A DNA stretch of 64,000 nucleotides from Erwinia sp. E602 (GTDB taxonomy: Bacteria; Pseudomonadota; Gammaproteobacteria; Enterobacterales; Enterobacteriaceae). Position 1 is the stretch's first letter. Each line of letters begins with the position of its first letter. Shown here piece after piece: positions 54,043 through 62,817 of this stretch. The stretch covers positions 2,356,001 to 2,420,000 of the forward strand of contig NZ_CP046582.1 of the NCBI RefSeq assembly GCF_018141005.1, in the 5' to 3' direction. Made by a program: the position numbers and the translations under genes. A model generated the notes under the pieces. That model searched no databases, had not been told where the DNA came from, and was given only the letters and a program-made list of their open reading frames with translations.

Positions 54043-54136
54043 CGTTGTCTGGTTGATCGAGACTATCGGGCCTGTCAGTGGGCGACCCTTCGCGGGTTAC
54101 CCCGCTACGGGCTCATCCCACTGCCCTCCCTGATAA
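54043..54136 (-). repeat. Flanking repeat, copy C (inverted)
   Basis: Reads CGTTGTCTGGTTGATCGAGA through CGGGTTACCCCGCTACGGGC to CTGCCCTCCCTGAT on the + strand, the reverse complement of copies A/B with scattered changes. Confidence 0.8.
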
Positions 54137-54201
54137 TCTGACTCTTTGTTGTCTGCTGGTTTTTTAAGGGCTCGTTGTTTTTGGGATCGAGAGTACAAGC
54201 T

Positions 54202-54294
54202 CGTTGCCTGGTTGATCGAGACTGGCGGGCCTGTCAGCGGGCGACCCTCCGCGGGTTACCCCGCTGCGGGCTCATCCCACTGCCCTCCCTGATA
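54202..54294 (-). repeat. Flanking repeat, copy D (inverted)
   Basis: Second inverted copy, 159 bases after C. It is closer to the A/B sequence than C is (CGTTGCCTGG; GTCAGCGGGCGACCCTCCGC). Confidence 0.8.
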
Positions 54295-54355
54295 ATCTAC
54301 TTCTTTGTGGTCTGCGGGTTTTATGACTGGCGGCGGTGTGCCGCCAGCCGGGGGA

Positions 54356-55390
54356 TCAGGAGACCATGCCGAGGCCAACGATGTTGGCGGCGAGGATGAT
54401 GACGAAGCAGCCGACGGTGAGGACGCGGACCGGGCTGCGGCCGACGTTGTTCCACTCTTTGAGCACCAGGCCGACGAGGCCGCCGCAGAGGACGTAGAAG
54501 CTCATGTGCAGCATCCAGCTGACGAAGTCATACTGCGCCGGGATGCGGGCGTGGCCCCAGGCGTAGAAGAAGAACTGCAGGTACCACATGGTGCCGCCAA
54601 GCAGTGAGAGCAGTACGTTGGCGATCAGGATGGATTTGGCAACCGAGAAGTCGGCTTTGACCGACAGGTTGGCTTTTGTGGCCAGGCGGATAAAGCAGAA
54701 GCCGAGGTTGATCAGTGCGCCACCGCCCATGATCACCACGTAGCTTGGCAGCGCGACGTAGAGCGGGTCGATACCGGCGGCGGCGGCGGCTTCGTGCATC
54801 GGTTTGGCGGCGTCCATGGCGAAGGACATGCCGGCGGAGAAGATGCCGCAGAGTACCGCGAGGATCAGCCCCTTCTTGAGGTTAAACTCTTCGGCGGTGA
54901 TGCCCATCGCCCGCTCTTTCAGCAGCCCGGCGCGGGAGACGATCGCTACGCCAATCAGCGCCACCAGCACACCCACCAGCGTAAGGCGGCCGCCGGACGA
55001 GCTGAACAGTTCGACAAAACGCCCCTGCAGCAGCGGCGTCATCAGCGTGCCGACCACCAGCGTGATGCCGATAGCGATGCCGATGCCCATCGACATGCCG
55101 AGGTAGCGCATGGTCAGGCCATAGTTGATGTTACCGATGCCCCACATCGCGCCGAACAGAAACACCGGCAGCAGTTGCGACAGCGAGAACGAGCTGTAGT
55201 AGCCCCAGAAGTTGGGCAGCAGGATGGCGCTGACCGCCCACGGCAGGATCAGCCATGACATCACTCCACCGACCGACCACATGGTTTCCCATGACCAGTT
55301 ACGTACCTTCTTGAATGGCGCATAGAAGCAGGCGGCGCTGGCCGCCCCCACCAGGTGCCACAGAATGCCAGAGATAATCGCTTCACTCAT
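54356..55390 (-). CDS. rhaT: L-rhamnose/proton symporter
   Basis: 344 residues, exactly the E. coli RhaT length, with ten membrane helices. [57 protein letters not shown] and [20 protein letters not shown] are hallmark segments. It imports L-rhamnose with protons across the inner membrane. It lies outside the inverted repeat pairs but belongs to the regulon: TTTTGCCA motifs are present upstream, as at rhaB. Divergent from aldA. Confidence 0.96.
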
Positions 55391-57218: not shown

Positions 57219-57241
57219 CGCCGCGCAAATAAGGCGCGGCG
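57219..57241 (+). terminator. Terminator of aldA
   Basis: CGCCGCGC and GCGCGGCG with an AAATAAG loop make eight perfect pairs, followed by TCAATTTAT, eight bases after the aldA stop. Confidence 0.7.
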
Positions 57242-57384
57242 TCAATTTATCCTCCGCCGCTCCCCTCCGCCGCAGCCGCGATGAAATAGTAATATCTCGC
57301 GAAATTATGAAGCATTTAGAAACTTACACCCGAACTTTAATTGCTTTATTTAGTATTTAATCCATATTTTTAATTTGCAGCCAT

Positions 57385-57404
57385 TAAGTGATCATAATCA
57401 CAAT
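57385..57404 (+). promoter_or_regulatory. CRP site before the leader-peptide gene
   Basis: TTAAGTGATCATAATCACAA has GTGA-N6-TCAC with symmetrical GTGAT/ATCAC halves. Its centre (57394.5) is 41.5 bases before the predicted start base 57436, the class II CRP position. Confidence 0.75.
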
Positions 57405-57423
57405 TCATCCTCCTGTTATTGCG

Positions 57424-57429
57424 TAAATT
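57424..57429 (+). promoter_or_regulatory. -10 element of the peptide gene promoter
   Basis: TAAATT matches TATAAT at four of six positions and is spaced from the CRP site as in class II CRP-activated promoters. A start near 57436 gives a 20-base leader that includes AAGGGGGA, the ribosome-binding site. Confidence 0.55.
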
Positions 57430-57455
57430 GACCTCCTCAATCAAGGGGGAATACC

Positions 57456-57572
57456 ATGAAAATATTGAACAAACAACAGATAAAATCAGTCAGTGGCGGC
57501 ACCTATCCTGCCAAATGGCCTTGGGACTGGTGGAAAGCATCGAAGAAAAAGAAACACTGTGAAAATAGCTGA
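57456..57572 (+). CDS. Double-glycine leader peptide, microcin-like (38 residues)
   Basis: Read by eye; too short for most gene callers. The product starts MKILNKQQIKSVSGG, a typical double-glycine leader (hydrophobic and acidic/amide pattern ending V-S-G-G) of class II bacteriocins and microcins cut by C39-peptidase ABC exporters. The predicted mature part of 23 residues begins TYPAKWPWDWW, then a KKKK-containing stretch, and ends HCENS: four Trp, seven Lys, one Cys. AAGGGGGA five bases before the ATG is a strong ribosome-binding site, and a CRP class II promoter lies just upstream. No exporter, modifying enzyme or clear immunity gene is adjacent. It could be a bacteriocin, a signal peptide for cell-cell talk, or an orphan remnant. 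Confidence 0.75.
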   Translation: MKILNKQQIKSVSGGTYPAKWPWDWWKASKKKKHCENS

Positions 57573-57586
57573 TTAATAATTAAAGG

Positions 57587-57615
57587 GTCGCCGTTAGCAA
57601 AACGATGACGGCGAC
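57587..57615 (+). terminator. Hairpin after the peptide gene
   Basis: GTCGCCGT and ACGGCGAC (eight perfect pairs, 13-base loop) start 15 bases after the peptide stop. No T-run follows. The rest of the stretch up to rluF (57616-57863) has no supported gene. Confidence 0.5.
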
Positions 57616-57863
57616 GTTGATGCACATCACCGTTATGCATTATTAGCACCATCACCCGTGAGAATTGTATAAAACTTCTGCTAACAACCGCTTTTCCACA
57701 CGCTTTATGCCTTCTTTCCCTGTAGCTACCCAATGAACTCATTCAGCGCCACGTGCACCCTTTATTATGTTTGCTCCACTGCACTGCAGAACATACTGGT
57801 GCCTAACGCCGTCTGCAGGATCGGCTGGACAAATGGCCGCTGCGGCAGCCGTTGAACGATGAC

Positions 57864-61529: not shown

Positions 61530-62402
61530 TCAGCCAGCGATCAACGCCTGATGAACCTCATCAGGCGTTTTATATTTTAGCGCCAGATGTGGACGCTCCC
61601 CGTTGTAGATTGCTACCGACTCCGCCACCATTTTTTTTGCCTCATGCAGATCGGCCGGACGGTGCAGGAGAAATTCCGTTTTCAGTATCCCGTTGACTCT
61701 TTCTGCCAGCGCATTCTGATAACAGTCGTAACCATCGGTCATCGAACAGGTTATTCCATATTTTTGATGCATCGCCTGATACTTTTCCGAGCAATACTGG
61801 ATCCCCCTGTCTGAGTGGTGTATCAGTTTCAGTTGACCGCGCCGGTGTCGTAAGGCACAGCGAAGCGCCTCCATAACCTCTTCAGTTTTAAGGCTTTCAT
61901 GGACGTGGTAGCCCATGATTTTACGTGAGCAGGCGTCGGTTATCAGACTCAGATAAACCATGTCACCCCGGGTTGGAAGATATGTAATATCTGCAACCCA
62001 GGCCTGTTCAGGACGGCTAATTATCACCTGGTCTGGACCCTTTTTTAGCAGATTTGGATGCCTGCGGAACCGATGATGGCTGTTAGTTGTTTTGTGGTAT
62101 GCACGCTTGCAGGGAACCAGCATTCGGTGTTCAGACAGCAGTGTGAACAGCCTGTCACGCCCCACTGGCGGGGCTATCTGTGCCTGGCTGTGAAGCAGGT
62201 AATGAAGTTTCCGTGTGCCTATTCGCGGCTGGCGTAGCCTGACTTTCGCCACGAAACGTATGACCTCAGCCGACTGCCTCCGGCGGGCGATATCCCGTTT
62301 GTTTTGCTGGTACCAGGACTGTCTGCTGTGCCCAAAAAACTGACAGACACGGCTGACCGTCAGCTTTTTGGCCGGAGTTTGCGCGAGGACTTCCCGGGCC
62401 GC
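61530..62402 (-). CDS. IS3-family transposase OrfB (frameshifted part)
   Basis: 290 residues in the -1 frame after orfA. Segments: SRQSWYQQNKRDIARRRQSA, TRKLHYLLHSQ, the DDE core WVADITYLPTRGDMVYLSLI, IHHSDRGIQYCSEKYQ and NALAERVNGILKTEF, then IYNGERPHLALKYKTP. It starts in the overlap with orfA; a GTG at 62252 could also begin an ORF but would miss the first 50 residues. The frameshift window is A-AAA-AAG at 62408-62402 (minus strand), in orfA frame as gtA AAA AAG. Makes an OrfAB fusion transposase. Confidence 0.9.
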   Translation of the reverse strand, partial: AAREVLAQTPAKKLTVSRVCQFFGHSRQSWYQQNKRDIARRRQSAEVIRFVAKVRLRQPRIGTRKLHYLLHSQAQIAPPVGRDRLFTLLSEHRMLVPCKRAYHKTTNSHHRFRRHPNLLKKGPDQVIISRPEQAWVADITYLPTRGDMVYLSLITDACSRKIMGYHVHESLKTEEVMEALRCALRHRRGQLKLIHHSDRGIQYCSEKYQAMHQKYGITCSMTDGYDCYQNALAERVNGILKTEFLLHRPADLHEAKKMVAESVAIYNGERPHLALKYKTPDEVHQALIAG

Positions 62403-62761
62403 TTTTTTACGATGCTTACCCCGTAATCATTTTTTAAAACGTTCACAACCGCTTCAAAAAACTCAGCTTTCTGGCTGACCAGTTCAAGCTGTTCTTCAAG
62501 TTCCTTGATTCTTTGTTGTGGTGTGAGAGGGGTCGGGGGCTGATTCACAGGCAGACTCCTGGTTGAGAGATTGGGCAAAGTTGGACTCCAGTTAAGGCGT
62601 CCATGTTTGCGTAACCAGGACAGAACGGTTGAACGTCCCTGGATGCCATAGCGCTGCTGGGCTTGTTTGTAGGTCAGTTCGCCTTTCTCGACCTGCTCAA
62701 CAACGGCCAGTTTAAAAGACAGAGTGTAATCTCGTTGGGTGCGTTTGAACTCAGTATTCAT
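62360..62761 (-). CDS. IS3-family OrfA (DNA-binding)
   Basis: 133 residues starting MNTEFKRTQRDYTLSFKLAV after CCGGAGAACGTG. Helix-turn-helix QAQQRYGIQGRSTVLSWLRK, followed by a leucine-zipper-like helix (QQRIKELEEQLELVSQKAEF). It binds the IS ends and supplies the N-terminal part of OrfAB through the -1 frameshift. Confidence 0.9.
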   Translation of the reverse strand: MNTEFKRTQRDYTLSFKLAVVEQVEKGELTYKQAQQRYGIQGRSTVLSWLRKHGRLNWSPTLPNLSTRSLPVNQPPTPLTPQQRIKELEEQLELVSQKAEFFEAVVNVLKNDYGVSIVKKRPGKSSRKLRPKS

Positions 62762-62817
62762 CACGTTCTCCGGAATTAAGTCGGAAACGTGTCAACGCTA
62801 TTCAGGACGGGTCACAG

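Follow-up and report, generated by a model that had tools for sequence, protein, structure and literature searches.

The 38-codon gene described here probably encodes a short secreted Trp/Lys-rich peptide, likely antibacterial, that would leave the cell through an unlinked C39-peptidase ABC exporter (PCAT); we put the probability of this reading at roughly 0.6. The gene lies in the window, by which we mean the whole 64-kb stretch of DNA that was analysed. The leader type, the signals of the gene, the exporters with their catalytic residues, the scattered leader genes and their co-occurrence with one type of exporter can all be read in the sequences. We infer that the 15-residue class II microcin-type leader would be recognized and cut behind Gly15 by a PCAT encoded elsewhere in the genome, releasing a 23-residue cationic, Trp/Lys-rich peptide that would most likely act as a small membrane-active antibacterial. 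Expression would be expected when cAMP-CRP is active.

The precursor gene, its leader and its core

The gene occupies 57456..57572 on the + strand (38 codons and TGA) and yields a 38-residue product, MKILNKQQIKSVSGGTYPAKWPWDWWKASKKKKHCENS. Its ATG at 57456 stands behind the Shine-Dalgarno sequence AAGGGGG (57443..57449, +; read from the sequence and graded strong), just as an earlier sequence-only reading of this DNA had described a small gene with a strong ribosome-binding site. It sits alone in an AT-rich stretch with aldA (NCBIfam aldehyde dehydrogenase PRK10090) on one side and rluF (23S rRNA pseudouridine(2604) synthase) on the other, the latter convergent and pointing toward the precursor gene. 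The neighbouring ORFs include no exporter, and no small ORF with a hydrophobic stretch, the mark of an immunity-like gene, was flagged beside the precursor, which agrees with the earlier remark that neither kind of gene is near. For the tie to sugar catabolism genes that the same reading had suggested, nothing was found beyond position.

The double-glycine leader, MKILNKQQIKSVSGG (57456..57500, +), has 15 residues and ends VSGG, with a cut predicted after G15 from a leader model and a profile match. The position model was built from 18 fifteen-residue leaders of PCAT loci in other genomes of the genus, the window peptide being excluded. Across 3,369 candidate starts in the window, it gave the 38-residue peptide 24.8 bits and the runner-up 6.4 bits; left-out training leaders scored between 4.9 and 42.7 bits. 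In other loci, 25 distinct sequences exceeded 15 bits, namely the 18 training leaders, the window peptide and six more, all six from stretches around exporters. Because of the distance between 24.8 and 6.4 bits, and because the other high scorers all come from exporter loci, the leader is, on its sequence, genuine in type and far beyond chance, and the microcin-like reading proposed earlier is strongly supported by a model built without the peptide. A profile match to the window leader in its own genome had an E value of 1.3e-4, with the peptide itself a row of the profile. The leader also has the length (15-20 residues), GG/GA end and class pattern that define class II microcins. The model TIGR03949 (lactobin A/cerein 7B bacteriocins) matches the peptide with 15.8 bits, on the leader only and below its curated cut-off of 21.5; over the own genome it gave two matches below the cut-off, one of them the window leader, and TIGR01847 gave one sub-cut-off match, elsewhere. 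Searched with the 38 residues, Pfam returned no match and NCBIfam just two below cut-off, one of them on the leader.

The 23-residue core, TYPAKWPWDWWKASKKKKHCENS (57501..57569, +), for which we found no convincing homologue, contains 4 Trp, 6 Lys, 2 Pro and 1 Cys and carries a net charge of +4, so the count bears out the Trp/Lys-rich part with one Cys noted previously. At least 4 Trp together with at least 6 Lys/Arg occur in 26 of 524,543 overlapping 23-residue windows of long ORFs. Among the 67 precursors assembled below, the window peptide has the highest Trp fraction and the shortest core, bar one five-residue core that is probably cut (20-residue precursor).

The conservation test proposed in the earlier reading had a divided outcome: leaders of this type, likewise spaced at 15 residues, occur in 27 of 37 genomes of the genus, but no convincing homologue of the whole 38 residues was found in 60, 37 or 392 genomes. 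A search of the 60 relatives produced one weak match (E 0.006), whose alignment reads through three TGA codons of a 0.3-Mb genome; the best non-self match in the 37 genus genomes had an E value of 0.04, and the 392 family genomes returned only the peptide itself at E <= 0.005. Searches with the 38 residues found no homologue in phages, only partial matches in plasmids (the 20 listed all at E >= 3), no candidate in the protein database and no relevant solved structure, and the core DNA pattern had no match in genome_contigs and viral_contigs, where the own genome may be absent. Since the core is without a detectable relative, a young or decaying gene is possible. Around aldA, ten relatives carry different next genes, with rluF within the stretch in 3 of the 10 (L067, L068 and L072). 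Of the 37 genus genomes, only the own one matches 57227-57786; the other matches fall within aldA, on rluF including its edge, and on 47 bases (57787-57833) that recur elsewhere in two genus genomes.

Regulatory signals around the gene

A CRP-like palindrome, GTGAT-CATA-ATCAC, lies upstream of the gene (GTGATCATAATCAC, 57388..57401, +; centre 57394.5). The full palindrome is observed once in the 64-kb window against 0.06 expected. Shuffling the local sequence 5,000 times with dinucleotides preserved produced a single GTGA-N6-TCAC, the looser form, and no full palindrome; the site is well above chance. Gene order implies that the site would be able to serve only the precursor gene, since it lies beyond the end of aldA and rluF is transcribed toward it. 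A possible -10 element, TAAATT (57424..57429, +), matches the consensus at 4 of 6 positions and implies a start at 57436, 41.5 bases from the centre of the palindrome. Of the CRP class II promoter proposed earlier, the palindrome is there, but the 'exactly -41.5' spacing is partly circular, as the start at 57436 was itself inferred only from the 4-of-6 match. A promoter scan did not include the TAAATT promoter in its list; it gave a weak + strand promoter, TTGACC-18-TACCAT (57428-57457), and one - strand promoter, two in total compared with 1.4 in shuffles. From these sequence features, control of the precursor gene by CRP is plausible. The hairpin reported behind the gene was recovered by folding at about 57584..57618 (+), with energies between -18 and -20 kcal/mol over the stretches folded, though no T-run follows it on the + strand.

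Exporters and scattered leader genes

The sequence-only reading had placed export elsewhere in the genome and called for a search for a C39 transporter with an HlyD partner. The genome encodes three C39 domains above cut-off (a fourth match lies below it), all three exporters keep the catalytic Cys, His and Asp, and each is accompanied by an HlyD-type gene, with adaptors that score under the curated cut-offs of the matched models. The PCAT and HlyD-type adaptor typical of class II microcin systems are thus present, and the proposal of export from elsewhere is supported by three exporters, one of them in an operon without a precursor. The first PCAT belongs to a radical-SAM XyeA/XyeB triceptide cluster (L035:4422-10315; about 1.476-1.482 Mb of G000:C2) made up of a TIGR04495 precursor (match at L035:4422-4583), the radical SAM protein XyeB, an aspartyl-protease-like protein, an HlyD-type adaptor and the PCAT. 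The second forms an HlyD-PCAT pair beside its own 71-residue precursor (L036:10189-10404, -), which is glycine-rich, has the leader ELTETEIDDVAGG and lies ~104 kb from the window gene. In the third case, a LuxR-family response regulator with a receiver domain, a TolC-family protein, an HlyD-type adaptor and the PCAT follow in a row on one strand (C2:4714772-4720296). No leader gene was found in the 18 kb around this operon, nor in 14 kb of the closest relative locus (G032, PCAT 80% identical), and we consider it the most likely exporter of the window peptide. No leader features that separate the three exporters were found. An ORF fragment upstream of the LuxR gene (in L034), reading MKIL...VSG-stop, was dismissed as a candidate sister precursor, because no Shine-Dalgarno sequence was seen and the fragment is absent from the matching G032 region.

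Relatives of the third PCAT occur in 14 other genus genomes at 62.7 to 80% identity, the next type reaching at most 45%, so that 15 of 37 genomes carry this TolC-type exporter. The order TolC-HlyD-PCAT is kept in all 15 loci, and a LuxR-family gene is found in 12 of them, in L105 beyond the far side of the PCAT. A search for that TolC in the other 44 PCAT loci gave no match (59 of the 62 C39 matches in the genus were examined; G009:C34, G023:C5 and G015:C1 were left out). Within the stretch read, six of the 15 TolC-type loci hold leader genes, two full-length ones in four loci and a single very short one in the other two; the remaining nine hold none, although in G022, one of these nine, two leader matches lie ~9 kb away. 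TolC-HlyD-PCAT loci also occur in named genomes, among them Mixta, Pantoea, Enterobacter, Intestinirhabdus, Erwinia and Paraburkholderia xenovorans (25 of the 61 across named genomes were examined). Eight of nine Pantoea loci are without a leader gene in the stretch read; in three of the examined loci (L231-L233) the PCAT is immediately followed by two microcin-like genes. On chromosome 3 of Paraburkholderia xenovorans LB400 (L248), the PCAT of such a locus shares 66% identity with the own-genome PCAT, and its occurrence in another bacterial class suggests horizontal transfer.

A leader profile of 16 rows, comprising the window peptide and leaders from relatives, gave six matches in the own genome at E <= 10: the window gene, four far genes and the precursor of the second exporter. 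For five of the six, the nearest PCAT is at a distance of 57.8 to 976 kb. The four other orphan genes, whose leaders are outside the profile that found them, encode 90, 73, 81 and 49 residues (E 1.3e-4, 0.017, 0.028 and 0.41). A relative of the 90-residue orphan is annotated as a hypothetical protein in Erwinia sp. 198 and Candidatus Pantoea varia; immediately ahead of the 49-residue gene is an ORF of 96 residues containing two hydrophobic stretches, a layout reminiscent of an immunity gene. As five leader genes stand apart from any exporter, several unlinked peptide genes may share a single exporter.

The same scattering is found across the genus. A 23-row profile, whose leaders come partly from the same genomes so that its E values are partly circular, gave 123 matches at E <= 0.3 in 27 of 37 genomes, 93 of them more than 12 kb from any C39 match or on another contig (60 of 85 at E <= 0.01); distances are given for the 31 of these 93 that share a contig with a C39 match. 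The orphan status claimed for the window gene is correct in that no exporter adjoins it, but the gene is no isolated oddity, being one of many scattered genes. Outside the own genome, 75 far matches have E <= 0.1; 60 stretches covered 64 of these, 11 (E 0.02-0.09) being left out, and two of the stretches (L180 and L229) had no leader ORF under the extraction rule. Together with five own-genome loci, the far stretches provide a set of 67 precursors, 66 of them distinct. A Shine-Dalgarno-like word of four precedes 65 of the 67, and a flagged non-leader small ORF with a hydrophobic stretch lies beside 12. One stretch (L188 of G032) contains tandem short leader genes of 52 and 40 residues, starting at 1957 and 2252 of the reversed locus, the first of them behind a CRP-like site; they are perhaps a two-peptide system. 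Another (L193) likewise carries two leader genes in tandem; its genome, G028, gave no C39 match at E <= 1e-10.

CRP as a shared regulator of the scattered precursors was considered and rejected, with strong sites (10-position score of at least 9) upstream of only 3 of 66, compared with 0.2 in shuffles. At a score of at least 8 there were 5 of 66 against 3.6, and a 22-base consensus at 15 or above gave a mild excess, 6 of 66 against 1.5. Fur sites showed no clear excess upstream of the 66 precursors; the FNR consensus matched at all ten positions in two upstream regions, against 0.07 in shuffles.

Scattered leader matches (E <= 0.05) were found in 13 of 15 genomes with the TolC-type exporter and in 9 of 22 without it, at means of 3.3 and 1.1 per genome; this co-occurrence has a Fisher p of 0.007 and a Mann-Whitney p of 0.0013 in tests that ignore kinship and with a profile derived partly from the same genomes. 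Four genomes have three to seven scattered matches and no TolC-type exporter (G018, G006, G025 and G013); G010 and G034, in turn, carry the exporter but gave no leader match. In an even draw of 295 family genomes, a C39 domain was present in 53 of 54 with leader matches at E <= 0.005 and in 48 of 241 others, again with kinship ignored. Among the matches listed for the 22 family genomes of at most three contigs, two of them from the genus, about 31 were far and 20 near. Tentatively, and at somewhat less than even odds, Erwinia and its relatives may possess a hub-and-spoke network in which one LuxR-governed exporter with a TolC-like channel of its own handles the products of many unlinked peptide loci dispersed among housekeeping genes, each locus being a single gene with its own promoter and most lacking an immunity gene. 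If so, the window gene would be among the smallest outputs of the network, a Trp/Lys-rich mini-peptide under carbon-source control.

Alternative readings and known systems

Antibacterial action is our first choice among the roles considered; a relic and a signal come next and stand about level, both unlikely. The gene could be a relic or have newly arisen, its microcin leader fused to a core that is degenerate or random, and without function at present: none of the genomes searched holds a convincing homologue, only a probably cut 20-residue precursor is shorter among the 67, and the AT-rich aldA-rluF stretch has other genes beside aldA in the ten relatives read. Yet start, Shine-Dalgarno sequence, leader and CRP-like site are all intact, and 4 Trp with 6 Lys in 23 residues is unusual, as the counts for long ORFs given above indicate. 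A secreted, pheromone-like signal, exported by a PCAT, sensed by neighbours and lacking antibacterial action, would suit the very short core, the lack of an immunity-like gene beside the precursor and the LuxR-family response regulator in the exporter operon. That regulator has a receiver domain, however, and no kinase gene was noticed next to it, short of a dedicated search; with few exceptions the other scattered precursors are longer and resemble microcins, and the Trp/Lys-rich composition would fit membrane activity. Trp-rich cationic antimicrobial peptides such as indolicidin are animal peptides with unrelated precursors; the likeness lies in being short, cationic and rich in Trp, Pro and Lys, and no homology is claimed.

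The presence of XyeA, XyeB, HlyD-type and PCAT genes in the same genome raises a further reading, in which XyeB would cross-link the core as a triceptide that leaves via the PCAT of the Xye cluster. The XyeA leader also ends VSGG and the window core has several Trp residues, but the XyeA leader is 41 residues long and different upstream, and the three XyeA-like cores (L035, L084 and L111) begin W-V/I-N, a start that the window core lacks although it contains W-W-K. With TIGR04495 (XyeA) giving no match to the peptide at E <= 1 and the cluster ~930 kb away from the window gene, we regard this as very improbable.

For the preferred reading, export of an antibacterial peptide by an unlinked PCAT, the closest known systems are the class II microcins of the microcin V type, also of Enterobacterales, which share the 15-residue GG leader pattern; PCATs and HlyD-type adaptors are likewise present in the genome. 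The window gene differs from them in having neither an immunity-like gene nor an exporter beside it and in its dissimilar core. At 38 residues its precursor is half the shortest known, the range being 75 to 120 residues in the part of PMC11494933 drawn on. In the parts used of PMC9746304, PMC13174018, PMC13101503 and PMC11494933, class II microcins come in clusters of PCAT, adaptor, microcin and immunity genes without TolC, with many Erwiniaceae candidates and with several microcins and PCATs per genome. The putative Erwinia/Pantoea class II microcins of PMC13174018, probably from the same bacterial group, are many and have GG/GA/GS leaders of 15-20 residues; as far as that part of the paper goes, those tested were given priority for having an exporter or immunity gene close by, and the cluster does not encode TolC, whereas here the precursors are scattered and one exporter type has its own TolC-like gene. 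Shared-exporter microcins (MccH47, MccM; Serratia marcescens) likewise involve several precursors per genome and often more than one PCAT, but in the two Serratia strains in the portion of PMC13101503 used, precursors lie close to a PCAT and not, as here, 57.8 kb or more away.

A literature search across titles and abstract starts, with bioRxiv and most subscription journals outside its scope, found no description of scattered orphan precursors with a LuxR-TolC-type exporter. The pneumococcal PCAT, of a Gram-positive host and without an outer-membrane channel, is said to have several unlinked substrates. It likewise exports GG peptides, for communication and competition (PMC7018657, in part), but from a Gram-positive cell. 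Published pipelines, as presented in the sections used of PMC9746304, PMC13174018 and PMC11494933, rely on exporter or immunity neighbours and on known microcins of 75-120 residues and may miss unlinked, very short precursors. If exported, the products of the scattered leader genes of the genus would make up an extensive set of peptides not yet read, and the matching of exporters to precursors, a question called open in the part of PMC13101503 drawn on, would become directly testable.

Two further features of the window were seen in passing. Similar GC-rich intergenic repeats, perhaps REP-like, appear as look-alike ORFs at window positions 54100-54400 and at L036:10640-11040, one copy near rhaT and the other near the second PCAT. 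At 61530-62764 (-), two ORFs resemble orfB and orfA of an IS3-family element.
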